Positions 6,380 through 27,730 of a DNA stretch of 35,246 bases are shown here, one piece after another. The notes below the pieces were generated by a model. The model had not been told where the DNA came from. It did not search any database and saw nothing but the letters and a program-made list of their open reading frames with translations. Position 1 is the first letter of the stretch. Each line of letters begins with the position of its first letter. This DNA is from Deltaproteobacteria bacterium. Its GTDB lineage: Bacteria; Desulfobacterota; Desulfobulbia; Desulfobulbales; VMSU01. The DNA is taken from the NCBI GenBank assembly GCA_013151175.1, contig JAADIV010000117.1, positions 1 to 35,246 on the forward strand. Direction: 5' to 3'. The position numbers and the translations under genes are program-made.

Positions 6380-6541
6380 GAGTCTGTCGGACTTAGACAA
6401 AATCTACTGCAAATTCGAGAAATCGGCCCATATTCCCATGGATTTTCGTTAAATAGCCCTGCTATTCGCCTCAAATCCATGAAAATCTGGTCTCGATTTC
6501 TCAAATTTTCGCTACGATTCTCTAAGTCCGACAGACTCCTA
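6377..6541. repeat. 165-bp imperfect palindrome with 21-bp perfect terminal inverted repeats
   Basis: Left arm taggagtctgtcggacttaga (6377-6397), right arm tctaagtccgacagactccta (6521-6541); inner halves also partly complementary; centre hairpin aatagc-cct-gctatt at 6452-6466. Confidence 0.9.
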
Positions 6542-7774
6542 ACAACCCCATCTATCCCGAAGCCGTTTTACCGCCTCCTTAACATCTTCCACATCACCAA
6601 AGGCCGAAAGGCGAAAATAGCCCTCGCCGCTTGGCCCAAAGCCGCTACCGGGTGTCCCCACCACATGACATTCACTCAACAGTTTATCAAAAAAATCCCA
6701 ACTGGCCATTTCTTCCGGAGTTTTTAACCATATATAGGGCGAGTTCTCCCCGCCAAAACAGGTAATTCCCGCTGCCGTCAAGCCTTCACGAATGAGCCGG
6801 GCATTGTGCAGATAATAATCGATGGTTGCGGTAATTTGCGTCCAGCCTTCATCGGAGTAAACCGCTGCCGCTGCTTTCTGTACCGGGTAAGAAACACCGT
6901 TGAACTTGGTGCCTTGCCGCCGATTCCATAACTGATTCAAGGCGATTTTTTCACCCCCGAAGGTGCGGGCGCCAAGTTCTTCCGGCACAATGGTCAGGCC
7001 GCAGCGCACCCCGGTAAAACCGGCGGTCTTGGAAAATGAGCGGAATTCAATGGCGCAATTTTTAGCACCTGGTATCTCGTAAATGGAGTGAGGAATGCCG
7101 GGCTGGCGAATAAAGGCCTCATAGGCGGCATCGAAGAGAATTATCGACTCATTGGCAACAGCATAATCCACCCAGACCTGCAACTGTTCCCTGGTTGCCA
7201 CAGTGCCGGTGGGATTATTGGGATAACAGAGATAGATGATATCAACTTTTTCGACAGGCAGAGCCGGGGTGAAATTATTCTCCGCCGTCATGGGCAGATA
7301 GGTTATGCCCTCGTAATAGCCACGGCTGTCGGCCTCACCGCTGCGGCCAATCATCACGTTGGTATCAATATAAACGGGATAAACCGGATCACAGATGGCA
7401 ATCTTATTATCCAGGGCGAAGATATCTAAAATATTAGCGGTATCACATTTAGAGCCGTCAGAGATAAACACCTCGGCGGCCTTAAGCTCCACCCCCAACG
7501 GCTTATACGCCTTCTCTATGATGACTTCGCTCAACCATTGATAGCCATGCTCCGGGCCATAGCCATGGAATGACTCCCGCCGGGCCAGATCATCTATACC
7601 GGCATGAAAAGCCTCAACAACTGCCGGGGCCAACGGCCTGGTAACGTCACCAATTCCCAGGCGAATAAGCCTGGCATCGGGATTGGCAGCCGCAAATTGC
7701 TGCACCCGGCGGCCAATTTCCGGAAAGAGATAGCCGGCCTGTAACTTCAGATAATTGTCATTAATATGTGCCAT
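6539..7774 (-). CDS. dapL: LL-diaminopimelate aminotransferase
   Basis: 411 aa; [68 protein letters not shown] (PLP Lys motif). Confidence 0.93.
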
Positions 7775-7791
7775 ATTGATTCCTGATAAAG

Positions 7792-7945
7792 TAACTGCTC
7801 ACAGGGTACCGAATCTACTTCGTTATCGCCCTGCTCACGTACAGGGAGTACGCTTCACAGGACGATGCCTCGCATCTCCGGCACCCTGTGAGCAGTTACA
7901 AGTCCTGGGTTATTGATTATTGCTGATCAGGGGGTGAGTAGTTAC
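7792..7945. mobile_element. MITE-like palindromic element, copy 1
   Basis: TIRs taactgctca / tgagtagtta; internal inverted repeat (g)taactgctcacagggt / accctgtgagcagttac centred at 7845; flanking direct repeat cctgataaag (7782-7791 and 7946-7955). About 103/108 bases identical to copy 2 over the palindromic part. Confidence 0.85.
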
Positions 7946-21890: not shown

Positions 21891-23226
21891 TCATCTCGGC
21901 AATCTGAAAGGCAATCTCCAGGCTCTGCTCGGCATTAAGACGCGGATCGCAGTTGGTCAGGTAGTTTTCCTGCAGGTTTTTGTCCATAATATTACGACCG
22001 CCGCCCGTGCATTCGGTAACATTTTCACCCGTCAATTCAAAATGGATGCCACCGGGGATGGTACCCTCGGCCAGATGAATCTCAAAAAATCGCCGTATTT
22101 CCTGAAGAATATCATTAAAATTCCTGGTCTTGTGCTTAGTTTCGGCGGTATAGGTGTTGCCGTGCATGGGATCACAGCTCCAGAGCAGATTATACCCCTC
22201 TCCTTTGAGATTCCTCAGCAGGGACGGCAGATATTTATCAATTTTTCCGGCCCCAAATCTGGTTATCAGGGTTAGACGCCCTGGCTCGTTTTGCGGATTT
22301 AATTTATCTATAATCCGCTTCAACTCATCAATGTCATGATTGGGGCCAACCTTCATACCGAGGGGATTTAATACCCCGCTGAGAAACTCAATATGCGCCC
22401 CATCAAGCTGACGGGTGCGGTCACCAATCCACAGCATATGCGCACTGCAGTCATACCAGAGACCAGTAGTGGAGTCCTGCCTGGTCAGGGCCTCTTCATA
22501 GCCCAGTAACAGAGCCTCATGCGAGGTGAAGAAACTTGCCTGATTCAGTAGCGGCCCTTCCACATCCAGGCCGATTACCTCCATAAAATGCAAGGCTCGA
22601 TCAATCTGCCTGGCCAGACGTTCGTATGAACGCCCCATGGGTGAGGTTTTTATGAACTCGTTATTCCAGGCAGTAACCCGGTTCAATGCTGCGTAGCCAC
22701 CCTTGGTAAAGGCCCGCAGGAGATTCATGGTGGAGGCTGCCAGATAATAGCCCTTTACCATTCGGCTCGGATCCGGAGTTCTGGCCTCCGGTGTCGGCAC
22801 CGGGCTATTGACCATATCACCACGATAACTGGAAAGTTCAATACCATTGACGTTTTCGGTGTCTGATGAGCGGGGCTTGGCATATTGCCCGGCGATTCTC
22901 CCGACCTTGATTACCGGTTTACCACCGGCATAACTCAAGATCACCGCCATTTGGAGAATTACCTTCAAACTCTCCCTGATGCCAGGCGCCGTGCAATTGT
23001 CAAAATCTTCCGAACAATCACCACCCTGCAATAAAAAAGCCCGCCCCTGAGACGCATCCCCCAGAAGCTGTTTCAACGCCCTGATTTCACCGGCAAATAC
23101 CAACGGCGGCAATTTACTTATGGTGGCCAGAGACGCTTGCAGCTCATCCTTATCCGGCCATTTTGGCTGTTGTAAGACAGGATAATTCTGCCAGCTTGAC
23201 CTTGTCCATGTGCTAGTTTTTGTCAT
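21880..23226 (-). CDS. Class II (plant-type) 3-deoxy-7-phosphoheptulonate synthase
   Basis: LPPLVFAGEIRALKQLLGDASQGRAFLLQGGDCSEDFDNC, KVGRIAGQYAKPRSS, WSCDPMHGNT, GGIHFELTGENVTEC; aaggag RBS before ATG at 23226. Confidence 0.96.
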   Translation of the reverse strand: MTKTSTWTRSSWQNYPVLQQPKWPDKDELQASLATISKLPPLVFAGEIRALKQLLGDASQGRAFLLQGGDCSEDFDNCTAPGIRESLKVILQMAVILSYAGGKPVIKVGRIAGQYAKPRSSDTENVNGIELSSYRGDMVNSPVPTPEARTPDPSRMVKGYYLAASTMNLLRAFTKGGYAALNRVTAWNNEFIKTSPMGRSYERLARQIDRALHFMEVIGLDVEGPLLNQASFFTSHEALLLGYEEALTRQDSTTGLWYDCSAHMLWIGDRTRQLDGAHIEFLSGVLNPLGMKVGPNHDIDELKRIIDKLNPQNEPGRLTLITRFGAGKIDKYLPSLLRNLKGEGYNLLWSCDPMHGNTYTAETKHKTRNFNDILQEIRRFFEIHLAEGTIPGGIHFELTGENVTECTGGGRNIMDKNLQENYLTNCDPRLNAEQSLEIAFQIAEMIRS

Positions 23227-23824
23227 TATTTTTATCTCCTTCGTAACCACCTTCCCGGGCCGAGGGCAAGGCACAAGCGCCGCCGACACAACATTCCTCC
23301 TGGTCAAAGGTGTTTAAAATACGGAATTCACGCTCCCGTTTTGCTCCGGCAGGGGGCGAGGCGAATTCACAGCCCGCAAGCAAGCTCAGAGCCTCTTCTC
23401 TGGTGGGAATTCCCGCCAGACCCCGCGCCAGAACCTGTCCCCGGCCAGTCTCTAAAAATTCAGCGTCTTCACCGTTGGTAACCACGGCGTAAGGTATTTG
23501 ATATTCAGGGTGCAGCACCCTGGCGGCGGCTATGGCCGAGCGTTCACGGGTTACCAGTGAACCTGGGCCATAGCGCAGAACAACAAGCCGCTGTCCCGCC
23601 AGATTTATCACCAGATCAATCGTTGAGACAACAAAATTATGATTGAATAAGGTCTCTATCCGCAGGCGTGGAATCAGCTCATCTCTGCTGTAACCCTTTG
23701 CAGTCACCAGAAAACGGGCAATTTTCTGCCGATAGCGTTCATCGTCCGTGTCAACGATGGATTGGCCGCTGAGATAATCCACCAGTGTCCCATAGATCAT
23801 ATGATGACTAGGGATATCGGCCAT
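23213..23824 (-). CDS. Stand-alone HsdR N-terminal-domain (HSDR_N_2)-like protein
   Basis: YRQKIARFLVTAKGYSRDELIPR...STIDLVINLAGQRLVVLRYGPGSLVTRERSAIAAARVL; C-terminal EECCVGGAC. Overlaps the next gene by 14 bp. Confidence 0.65.
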   Translation of the reverse strand: MADIPSHHMIYGTLVDYLSGQSIVDTDDERYRQKIARFLVTAKGYSRDELIPRLRIETLFNHNFVVSTIDLVINLAGQRLVVLRYGPGSLVTRERSAIAAARVLHPEYQIPYAVVTNGEDAEFLETGRGQVLARGLAGIPTREEALSLLAGCEFASPPAGAKREREFRILNTFDQEECCVGGACALPSAREGGYEGDKNNDKN

Positions 23825-23835
23825 TGCTTCGCCGC

Positions 23836-24729
23836 TTATAATTCCAACCAGGATTCAGAAAATACCGATTTGCCGGTCAGAACATTGTAGGTCTTGTAAT
23901 GTTGCAATTCGCTCTCTGACAATTTACCCAGATCTGGTTCATTGCCGTCCATCATGCCGAATACAAGGTCAACCAAATTCTGACGCTGACCGGTGGCAAT
24001 GGCCATCAACTCCGGATCATAGGCGTTGACAATGGCGGTTTGCAAGCCGTTCTGCATCAACATAATCAGATAAGTGCGATCCAGATATTTACGCAGATGA
24101 TCGGCGACACCATTGGAGACATTGGAGAGACCGATGGTGGAACTGGCACCGGGGGCAATATCCTGCACCATACTCATAAATTCCAGCCCGGAATTTATCT
24201 GGTCAACTCCAAGGGTGATGGGAGTAGCAATGGGATCGAAAAACATCTTCTCGTTGGGAATACCCGCTTCGCTCAGAGCCATCATCAGATCAACCGCCAT
24301 GGCCGCCCTTTCGTTTGAATCACGGGGCATACCGTCCGGCCCCCAAAGCAGAGCGACAACATTACAGCCCATCTCGGCGGCCACCGGGATTAATTTTTCC
24401 ATTCTCTCCGGCTGAGCGGAAATAGAGTTCATCAAGGCCCCCGCCTTATTTTTGACCGCCTTGAAACCGGCGGCCATGGCATCGGTATTGGTGGTATCCA
24501 GACACAGAGGGGTATCGGTTACAGCCTGCACTGTTTCAACCACCCAGGGCAGCAACTCGACCCCGTCCTTACGGGCCGGGCCGATGTTGAGATCCAGGAA
24601 GGCCGCACCGGCGGCACTTTCCTCTTTGGCCATTTCCTGAACAGGCCCGGCCTCTCTGGCCTTCATGGCGGTGCCACTTCTGGTTCCCATGATATTGATA
24701 CTCTCGGCAATGGGTTTAATCTGGGTCAT
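23836..24729 (-). CDS. acsE: Methyltetrahydrofolate:corrinoid/iron-sulfur protein methyltransferase (AcsE-like)
   Basis: Pterin-binding fold: FLDLNIGPARKDGVELLPWVVETVQAVTDTPLCLDTTN, MNSISAQPERMEKLIPVAAEMGCNVVALLWG, STIGLSNVSNG. Confidence 0.85.
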   Translation of the reverse strand: MTQIKPIAESINIMGTRSGTAMKAREAGPVQEMAKEESAAGAAFLDLNIGPARKDGVELLPWVVETVQAVTDTPLCLDTTNTDAMAAGFKAVKNKAGALMNSISAQPERMEKLIPVAAEMGCNVVALLWGPDGMPRDSNERAAMAVDLMMALSEAGIPNEKMFFDPIATPITLGVDQINSGLEFMSMVQDIAPGASSTIGLSNVSNGVADHLRKYLDRTYLIMLMQNGLQTAIVNAYDPELMAIATGQRQNLVDLVFGMMDGNEPDLGKLSESELQHYKTYNVLTGKSVFSESWLEL

Positions 24730-24756
24730 TGTTTCCTCCTGATTTTTCTTTTTATA

Positions 24757-24912
24757 TAACTGCTCACAGGGTACCGAACCTGCTTCGTTATCGCCCTGCT
24801 CACGTACAGGGAGTACGCTTCGCAGGACGATGCCTCACATCTCCGGCACCCTGTAAGCAGTTACAAGTCCTGTGGTTATTGATATTAAGGTACCTACGGG
24901 GTGAGTAGTTAC
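24757..24912. mobile_element. MITE-like palindromic element, copy 2
   Basis: Same element as 7792-7945; flanking 9-bp direct repeat ctttttata at 24748-24756 and 24913-24921. Confidence 0.85.
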
Positions 24913-24996
24913 CTTTTTATATTAAAACCGCGATAGTAATGATAAAAATATGAACTTCGAAAAATAGCGTGAATGGCCGATATTGTCAAAGTTTTT

Positions 24997-25773
24997 TCAA
25001 CGCAACCACTTTTTTTTCATGAATTTTACCGCAGCCGGCAGTGAAAATGGCCGGCCGGCCAGACGAGGATCATAACGCAGAGGATTGGTATGAAGAACCG
25101 TGGCGGCATGAATATAAAAATTATGCCAACCCGCTTTTTTGGCTCTGAGCGCGTATTCCATATCGGCAAAATAGGGCGGCATGGCCGCATCCGGCAGGCC
25201 AATATCTTCAATCAGTTCCCGCCGGATAATTTTAGCGCCACTCCAAAGCCAATCGACCTCCGCATCGGCCTTATAAGCAAAAAATGGCGCCAAATGTTTA
25301 TCGTGCCTGCCGCTATAGCCAGAAGTCCTGGGTAAAAATTGCCGCACCAGGGAAAAAAGAGAATGAAAAGCCCGGACGGTGCGCTCCGGCTTACCGTAGG
25401 CATCAATAATACGGGGAGCGGCAAGGCCCGCGTACGGATTGTCGTCCATGAACTCCACCAAACGCAGGAGGCATTGCGGCTGTATCTGAACATCATGACT
25501 AACAACCATAATATAGCGCCCGGCGGCCAGGGCCGCAGCCTGATTACAGGCCCCTACCTCCGTTTCTCCGGGCAGGGCGAAGATATTCAAGGCCGGGAAC
25601 TCACTCAGCAGCGCTGAGTCGCTGTCCCCGCCGCGATTGACAAGAAAGATTTCAATTGCCACGGGATCAGCGGTCTCAGCTAAAGAACACAGTAAACTGC
25701 GGGCCGCCGGTGGCTGCCACTTGATGGCGGTGCAAACCGTTATATCCGGCTGAATATGCGGCGGAGATTCCAA
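24997..25773 (-). CDS. Glycosyltransferase family 2
   Basis: GACNQAAALAAGRYIMVVSHDVQIQPQCLLRLVEFMDDNP, WLWSGAKIIRRELIEDIGLPD, YFADMEYALRAKKAGW. Confidence 0.85.
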   Translation of the reverse strand: MESPPHIQPDITVCTAIKWQPPAARSLLCSLAETADPVAIEIFLVNRGGDSDSALLSEFPALNIFALPGETEVGACNQAAALAAGRYIMVVSHDVQIQPQCLLRLVEFMDDNPYAGLAAPRIIDAYGKPERTVRAFHSLFSLVRQFLPRTSGYSGRHDKHLAPFFAYKADAEVDWLWSGAKIIRRELIEDIGLPDAAMPPYFADMEYALRAKKAGWHNFYIHAATVLHTNPLRYDPRLAGRPFSLPAAVKFMKKKWLR

Positions 25774-25801: not shown

Positions 25802-27730
25802 TCAGGTAGTTAAGGCCCTCTGCACCGATGGAAATAGCGCCATATTGGTGTGGGGCAGAAACAGAGCGGCCATGTAGTGGCTCATAAATTTATGGTTTTC
25901 ACTAAGCTCCATATTGGTCATTAAACTGCTGACCTGATTACGCTCCCGAAAACGTTTATGATCAACCAGGCTGATCTGCGCGCCCATCAACGAAGCGTTG
26001 CCCAGGTAATAGAAGCGTTCCCGGTCAATATCGGGCAGCAGGCCGATGGATATGGCACGCTCCAGATCAATATAGGCCCCGAAATTCCCGGCCAGGATGA
26101 CCCGTTCCAAATCAGTAAACCCCATTCCCACCGTTTCAAGCAGGCTCACATAACCGGCGAACATAGCCCCCTTGGCCCTGATCAGATTGTCAAGATCCAC
26201 CTCGGTTATGACTATATCCTCACCGAGCATGGTGTTTTTGGCCCAGGCCAGGACATATTCAAAATTATCAACACCCTCTCTGATTCTGGGGTGATTCAGG
26301 CTACGGTTGAACTTGCCCTGCTGATCAATAACTCCGGCATCAAACAATTCGGCGGCAATGCTGATGAGACCGGAGCCGCAGATACCGCAGGGCTTGCTGT
26401 GACCAATAGTAATAATCATCGGATCCAGGGTATCAGGATCAAGGTGAAAATTTTCGATGGCACCGGCTGAGGCCCGCATACCGTACTTAATACCGCCGCC
26501 CTCAAAGGCCGGGCCAGCCGAACAGGCGGCACAGATCATCCAATCGCTGTTGCCGACAACAATTTCACCATTGGTGCCAATATCAATAAATAGAGTAACT
26601 TCAGAACTTTTATGCATCTGACAGGCATGTACCCCGGAGGTGATATCGCCCCCCACGTAACTGGCCACAGAGGGGTAAAGAAAGAGACGCACCGATGGAT
26701 GGGCATCAATCCCTATTGCCGCCGCCCTGGTCAGGGGCATCTGATTACATATGGGCACATAGGGCGTTTCTCTGATGAACTTGGGGTTCAAACCCAGCAG
26801 CAGATGGGCCATGACAGTATTACCCGCCGCCATGATATAGGTGATATCTCGGGCGGCAATGCCCTGTTTACCGCAGACAGAGGCGATGATCTGATTGATG
26901 GAGCCTACCACCTTTTCCCGCAGGGCCTGCAAACCACCGGGCCGCTGCGAATAGATGATTCGGGAAATTACGTCTTCACCATAGCCGATTTGGCCGTTAT
27001 AACACGAGGCATCGGCTAACACCTTGCCGGTATTAAGATCCAACAGAATACCGCCCAGAGTTGTGGTGCCAATATCCAGGGCAAGGCCATAAAATTCGCC
27101 CGTAGTATCACCCGCCTCCACGGCAATAATACGATCCGGCTCCTCAGGCCGTTTACCGCGCAACATGATGACCGTTACCTGCCAGTCTGCCTGGCGCAGA
27201 ATAAAGGGCAGCTCCTGCAACAGAGCAGGGTGGTCATAGGTGGGTTCCTCGCAGTCGTAACAGCCCTTTTTGATTGCCCGCATCAGTCGTTGGAGATCCG
27301 GCGCGTTGTCCTCGGCGGTGGGCGGATCGAGTTGCAAAAAACGCTTTTCCACCGGGGGATCAACATCCCATTTCCCCACCAGGGAATCCAGGCTGCGGGC
27401 CGGTATGGCCCGGGTGGTTTTGGGCTTACGCTTCAGGGCGGTGCCATCGGCCCTGGTCTTGACTGGAACCTGAACTTCCAAATCGCCGGTAATGGTTGAT
27501 GAACAGGCTAGTTGATAGCCCTGAGCCCGTTCCCCGGCCGTGATTTTATGACCTTTTTCGGTGGGCGCGGTGCCTGCCAATATTTTGACCTTGCATTTAC
27601 CGCAGACCCCTTCACCGCCACAAAAGGCGTGAATATAAACCCCGGCCCTGGCCGCCACATCCAAAAGATTTTCCCCCTTGGCCGCCGCAACTTTGATATT
27701 ATCCGGTAAAAAATGTACAGTGTATTCCAT
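25802..27730 (-). CDS. acsV: ASKHA-domain corrinoid activation protein with N-terminal [2Fe-2S] domain (AcsV/RACo-like, DUF4445)
   Basis: AGVYIHAFCGGEGVCGKCKVKILAG ferredoxin motif; GLALDIGTTTLGGILLDL; LFIDIGTNGEIVVGN; LAGNFGAYIDLERAISIGLLPD. Confidence 0.85.
   Translation of the reverse strand: MEYTVHFLPDNIKVAAAKGENLLDVAARAGVYIHAFCGGEGVCGKCKVKILAGTAPTEKGHKITAGERAQGYQLACSSTITGDLEVQVPVKTRADGTALKRKPKTTRAIPARSLDSLVGKWDVDPPVEKRFLQLDPPTAEDNAPDLQRLMRAIKKGCYDCEEPTYDHPALLQELPFILRQADWQVTVIMLRGKRPEEPDRIIAVEAGDTTGEFYGLALDIGTTTLGGILLDLNTGKVLADASCYNGQIGYGEDVISRIIYSQRPGGLQALREKVVGSINQIIASVCGKQGIAARDITYIMAAGNTVMAHLLLGLNPKFIRETPYVPICNQMPLTRAAAIGIDAHPSVRLFLYPSVASYVGGDITSGVHACQMHKSSEVTLFIDIGTNGEIVVGNSDWMICAACSAGPAFEGGGIKYGMRASAGAIENFHLDPDTLDPMIITIGHSKPCGICGSGLISIAAELFDAGVIDQQGKFNRSLNHPRIREGVDNFEYVLAWAKNTMLGEDIVITEVDLDNLIRAKGAMFAGYVSLLETVGMGFTDLERVILAGNFGAYIDLERAISIGLLPDIDRERFYYLGNASLMGAQISLVDHKRFRERNQVSSLMTNMELSENHKFMSHYMAALFLPHTNMALFPSVQRALTT

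Follow-up and report, generated by a model that had tools for sequence, protein, structure and literature searches.

The acsE-like gene in the window (the whole 35,246-nucleotide stretch of contig JAADIV010000117.1 that was analysed) is preceded by a short mobile element made of a long imperfect palindrome and a tail. The element is a member of a MITE superfamily, previously undescribed as far as searched, that has a strand-specific hairpin. It is most probably (probability about 0.6) a MITE that has entered the acsE leader, has ends of IS66 type and keeps its palindrome as a stem-loop on the tail-first strand. The search of the open literature turned up neither this family nor IS66-type MITEs from Desulfobulbales. 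MITE palindromes are usually regarded as relics of transposon ends. A preference for pairing on one strand, with the tail of the same copies as a neutral control, offers a testable bacterial case in which the RNA (or single-stranded DNA) of a MITE would matter to the element itself.

The window contains two copies of the element, located as follows.

24756..24912, plus strand: element copy 2 (MITE), 157 bp, palindrome first and tail last
24756..24865, plus strand: 110-bp imperfect palindrome of copy 2
24866..24912, plus strand: 47-bp tail of copy 2, with the terminus GTGAGTAGTTAC
24748..24755, unstranded: target duplication CTTTTTAT, left copy
24913..24920, unstranded: target duplication CTTTTTAT, right copy
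7791..7945, plus strand: copy 1 of the element (155 bp in length), 16 bp ahead of the start of an aminotransferase gene
6539-7774, minus strand: the aminotransferase gene downstream of copy 1

The two copies show 96% identity over 116 nt in a repeat search of the window. The 110-bp palindromes have 6 differences, transitions only, and one of these is a G to A change at the first base of copy 2. The original prediction, made from the sequence of the window, had placed copy 2 here with about 95% identity to copy 1, which is confirmed, and its 5 differences, all transitions, over 108 bp are essentially right. It had also assigned copy 2 a 9-bp target duplication (ctttttata). A duplication is indeed present, but the length in the family is 8 bp and copy 2 carries CTTTTTAT; the ninth base counted is the first base of the element itself, which is mutated in copy 2. 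The duplication of copy 1 has 9 bp, CCTGATAAA. The view of copy 2 as MITE-like and independently inserted is borne out by the different target duplications, the many copies, and the acsE leaders without the element in most relatives, including the congener (G002), where the leader is short.

The draft genome to which the window belongs (2.2 Mb, 236 contigs) has 41 matches to the element, corresponding to about 30 separate copies or fragments, and a chance origin is therefore excluded. Copies in this genome lie between genes resembling rpsS and rplV, sdhA and sdhB, and pyrB and pyrC, as read from the flanking translations. One element locus is found on two contigs with small differences (L004 on C173 and L005 on C215), which suggests that the draft contains mixed strains or overlapping contig ends.

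With a profile made from 22 seeds, 91 distinct full-length copies of the palindrome-plus-tail plan were detected in about ten Desulfobulbales genomes. Matches are present in 17 of the 38 genomes searched, and the carriers are spread across the order, including Desulfobulbaceae and Desulfurivibrionaceae MAGs. Most copies have 155-159 bp, with terminal inverted repeats GTAAC...GTTAC and without a transposase gene. Target duplications sit immediately outside the GTAA...TTAC ends; among 89 testable copies they match at 8 of 8 positions in 51 and at 7 of 8 in 15 more (total 66). Short length, terminal inverted repeats and a target duplication of fixed length are the marks of a MITE. One genome (G022) contains a group of nearly identical copies, almost all with perfect duplications, which indicates recent transposition. 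There are also mini copies (53-62 bp) and palindrome-only copies, several with 8-bp duplications. A sister family with GTAACTATTCAG ends, the identical palindrome-plus-tail plan and the same strand asymmetry has many copies in the genome of the window (C1:10950-11104, C18:28525-28678, C20:6747-6898, C54:8354-8506 and others).

The ends and the duplication point to the IS66 family, which is defined by GTAAGCG ends and 8-bp repeats (PMC11946415); two IS66 elements of Paracoccus have an 8-bp duplication as well (PMC3281130). IS66 elements inside Desulfobulbales likewise have GTAAGCG-type ends and 8-bp duplications. The G012, G037 and G005 subfamilies of the present element have GTAAGCG ends and the window copies have GTAACTG. 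The first 11 bases, GTAAGCGCTCA, are common to the G012 subfamily and two IS66 elements of the order. The element shares with the IS66 family and its derived MITEs the 8-bp target duplication and the terminal repeats GTAA/GTAAGCG. It differs in being devoid of transposase genes and in having a long strand-asymmetric hairpin and a tail, and the search found no IS66 parent with identical ends. The search for a parental transposase used the end motif together with PF03050 and PF05717 and covered the genome of the window, element-rich relatives and 243 genomes of the order. IS66 is present in 94 of the 243, but no autonomous parent sharing the ends was found in any of these drafts, and an IS66 with the exact ends of the element is absent from all 30 loci read. 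TnpC and TnpB were not detected in the element-rich genomes G022 and G010. The genomes compared are mostly MAG drafts, in which an autonomous partner may be hidden. The marks of ends and duplication, taken without a parental element, suggest the IS66-type assignment.

There is a large predicted difference between the two strands of the element. Folded as RNA, copy 2 gives -77.8 kcal/mol (z -8.8) on its tail-first strand (minus, acsE-sense) and -57.4 kcal/mol (z -2.9) on the other, both for the whole element. The tail-first strand is more stable in 88 of the 91 copies (median 16.5 kcal/mol), a raw count that is inflated by shared ancestry among copies. With clustering at 80% identity the fold direction is identical in 13 of 14 representatives (by pair counts), and at 70% 6 representatives are left, with the asymmetry in 5. 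Six copies of the sister family and the element in the acsE leader of G005 likewise favour the tail-first strand. The asymmetry comes from G-U pairs, which become A-C mismatches on the opposite strand. Across 24 divergent sequences, 33 pairs are 96.7% intact, and covariation amounts to 52 double-change cells versus 14 in shuffles; the observed pairing and covariation values are reached by 0 of 500 shuffles.

Recent changes show the same preference. Among within-cluster transitions at paired sites, 34 make G-U and 10 make A-C, counted as distinct sites, while the tail of the same copies, a built-in control, gives 27 versus 32 (Fisher p = 0.002 against paired sites). Clusters are not a phylogeny, and distinct-site counting reduces the effect of shared ancestry in these numbers without removing it. 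The excess arises through both C>T and A>G, and strand-specific deamination is rejected as its cause, since a mutational strand bias would have marked the unbiased tail as well. Selection on host mRNA is disfavoured, as copies in both orientations show the excess. The asymmetry itself is present in both classes of orientation to host genes and therefore belongs to the element. This pattern of substitutions implies that selection acts on a single-stranded hairpin of fixed polarity. The molecule is probably RNA; single-stranded DNA is possible because DNA energy parameters give an asymmetry in the same direction, weaker, in 87 of the 91 copies. A described Rfam RNA family is rejected, no covariance model having a match in the element at gathering score.

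The position of the copies relative to host genes is also non-random. Gene calls came from a simple codon-score procedure that was checked on the window, and 0 of the 91 copies lie inside a predicted gene. The palindrome end of 25 copies is found within 15 bp after a stop codon, compared with 5 copies for the tail end (p = 3e-4). Of the copies that lie between co-directional genes, 32 run along the genes and 19 are opposed (p = 0.09). No uniform orientation bias over all groups is seen, the MAGs JANTFJ and JANTGB being without the trend; omitting these two, a grouping chosen after seeing the data, the stop-codon counts are 23:0 and the orientation counts 26:8. The original prediction had held that both window copies face their downstream gene in the same way, and had named random position and orientation among genomic copies as the result that would count against a role there. 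The two copies do both turn the palindrome end toward a minus-strand start, but this is the rarer arrangement in the family, where the end facing a start is the tail in 40 cases and the palindrome in 26. A same-orientation rule is rejected on these counts. Both position and orientation are non-random, but the bias is opposite to that of the window copies.

The acsE locus of the window has the following features.

23836..24729, minus strand: acsE-like methyltransferase (Pterin_bind; Pfam)
24997..25773, minus strand: GT2 glycosyltransferase (Pfam)
25802..27730, minus strand: acsV-like RACo protein (Fer2 and RACo domains; Pfam)
24961..24989, minus strand: conserved sigma70-like acsE promoter, TTGACA-N17-TATTTT, upstream of the element

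The Pfam domains agree with the earlier assignment of acsV, GT2 and acsE. A predicted promoter of the TTGACA-N17-CTATTTT type is located between GT2 and acsE in all 12 loci compared. Its distance to the acsE start is 117-190 bp in the loci without an element, rising to 260 bp in the window and to 380 bp in G005. As this conserved promoter stands upstream of the element, the insertion lies in the acsE leader, and the predicted signals put the insertion point between this promoter and the ribosome-binding site. An acsV-GT2-acsE operon in which the element decouples acsE, as had been proposed, is rejected, the promoter being native and conserved in 12 of 12 loci. The suggestion of an outward promoter is not supported either, as neither a promoter-like nor an intrinsic-terminator-like site is present inside the element. 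What is found is a Wood-Ljungdahl gene with its own conserved promoter in Desulfobulbales and an element in its leader, not an operon joint.

A gene with an HSDR_N-like domain (23213-23824) follows acsE in the window and precedes a DAHP synthase gene, an arrangement that most of the relatives read have kept.

In an independent event, a sister element has inserted into the acsE leader of G005 as well (L261, G005:C1), oriented like the window copy and with the ends GTAAGCGTTCACC and the duplication ACAATAAA. That one leader was hit twice independently may be a coincidence, or may reflect recruitment or a site that tolerates insertions. Beyond a longer and structured leader, there is no support for a regulatory effect on acsE, and a role in mRNA processing would fit the modelled strand-specific hairpin.

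In the preferred explanation, a non-autonomous element with IS66-type ends has inserted between the acsE promoter and the ribosome-binding site, and an IS66-type transposase, presumably now absent or unassembled, would have mobilised it in trans. The palindrome would be maintained as a stem-loop of the tail-first strand, the acsE-sense strand in the window. The selected molecule would be RNA and the benefit would go to the element itself, because the asymmetry exists in copies of either orientation relative to host genes. The likely consequence for acsE would be a long leader in which a strong predicted hairpin stops 26 nt short of the start codon (copy 2 ends 26 bp from the ATG), and any effect on expression would be post-transcriptional. 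A more general, speculative form of this explanation appears doubtful: throughout the Desulfobulbales superfamily a structured RNA whose polarity is fixed, with the tail 5' and the hairpin 3', would be selected because it helps the element to spread, for instance as a transcript that is required or protected during IS66-type mobilisation, and the elements would prefer sites that place the hairpin just behind stop codons.

A plain neutral MITE would account for the ordinary MITE marks, with the palindrome as a relic of transposon ends, its pairing maintained by templated quasi-palindrome correction and the hairpin without function. Templated repair of quasi-palindromes can yield compensatory double changes without selection. 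However, such correction gives perfect pairs and has no preference for G-U over A-C, whereas the paired sites show 34:10 against 27:32 in the tail, and the asymmetry extends to 88 of 91 copies. This neutral explanation is strained by the paired-site G-U excess and is considered unlikely. Alternatively, the hairpin could act as single-stranded DNA, with one strand recognised by a protein during mobilisation. The attC sites and the hairpins of IS200/REP type are recognised in this manner, on one strand as single-stranded DNA, and the DNA parameters agree in direction for 87 of 91 copies. The 8-bp duplication and terminal inverted repeats suggest instead a transposase that cuts double strands, and near-invariant G-U pairs are better accommodated in RNA than G-T in DNA, making a DNA hairpin quite improbable. 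It is very unlikely that acsE has recruited the insertion for regulation, as an attenuator, a processing site or a stabilising leader hairpin. The G005 insertion and the coincidence of the strong hairpin strand with the acsE-sense strand would agree with recruitment, but the element is free of promoter- and terminator-like sites, the promoter upstream of it is native, most relatives have the leader without it, and the orientation in the window is the less common one.

The stem-loop MITE favoured here was compared with other bacterial palindromic repeats. The Correia/NEMIS elements of Neisseria have species of 107 and 155 bp, and their transcribed stem-loops are proposed RNase III substrates (PMC2229807). 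They are alike in size class, palindromic structure and mobility, the strong RNA stem of the present element being a prediction, but differ in ends, duplication and host. ERIC sequences are 127-bp enterobacterial repeats with an orientation-dependent effect on mRNA (PMC2229807). They share the intergenic imperfect palindrome, but differ in sequence and host, and the polarity of the hairpin is intrinsic to the present element. The REP sequences of E. coli are enriched within 15 nt after stop codons (PMC12306157), similar to the enrichment of the present family there, and have a size of 20-40 bp (PMC3733652). In comparison, the present elements are about 157 bp (modal length 156-159 bp), with target duplications and terminal repeats, and an identity with REP is rejected by size.

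Several loci depart from the common plan. One copy (L002, G000:C9:15051-15207) has a 27-bp direct repeat, CTGAACAAGGAATATAATTGATGAAAA, on its two sides instead of 8 bp. This repeat covers the stop codon of one gene and the start codon of the next, and as a result both genes are intact. In L019/L040 (G000:C40:2101-2198) another palindrome, GTAGAGACGCACGGCCGTGCGTCTCTAC, is located in place of the long hairpin and the ends are unchanged. Additional GGAGTCTCGCAGG...CTCGCTTACC segments are found in the left arm of L008, L010, L014, L016, L023 and L038; in L023 and L038 they are present in both arms and the stem stays palindromic. A sister-family element (L279, G000:C29), with ends at 1500 and 1856, has an internal ORF with weak, below-cut-off likeness to the N-terminus of IS110 transposase (E 0.022).
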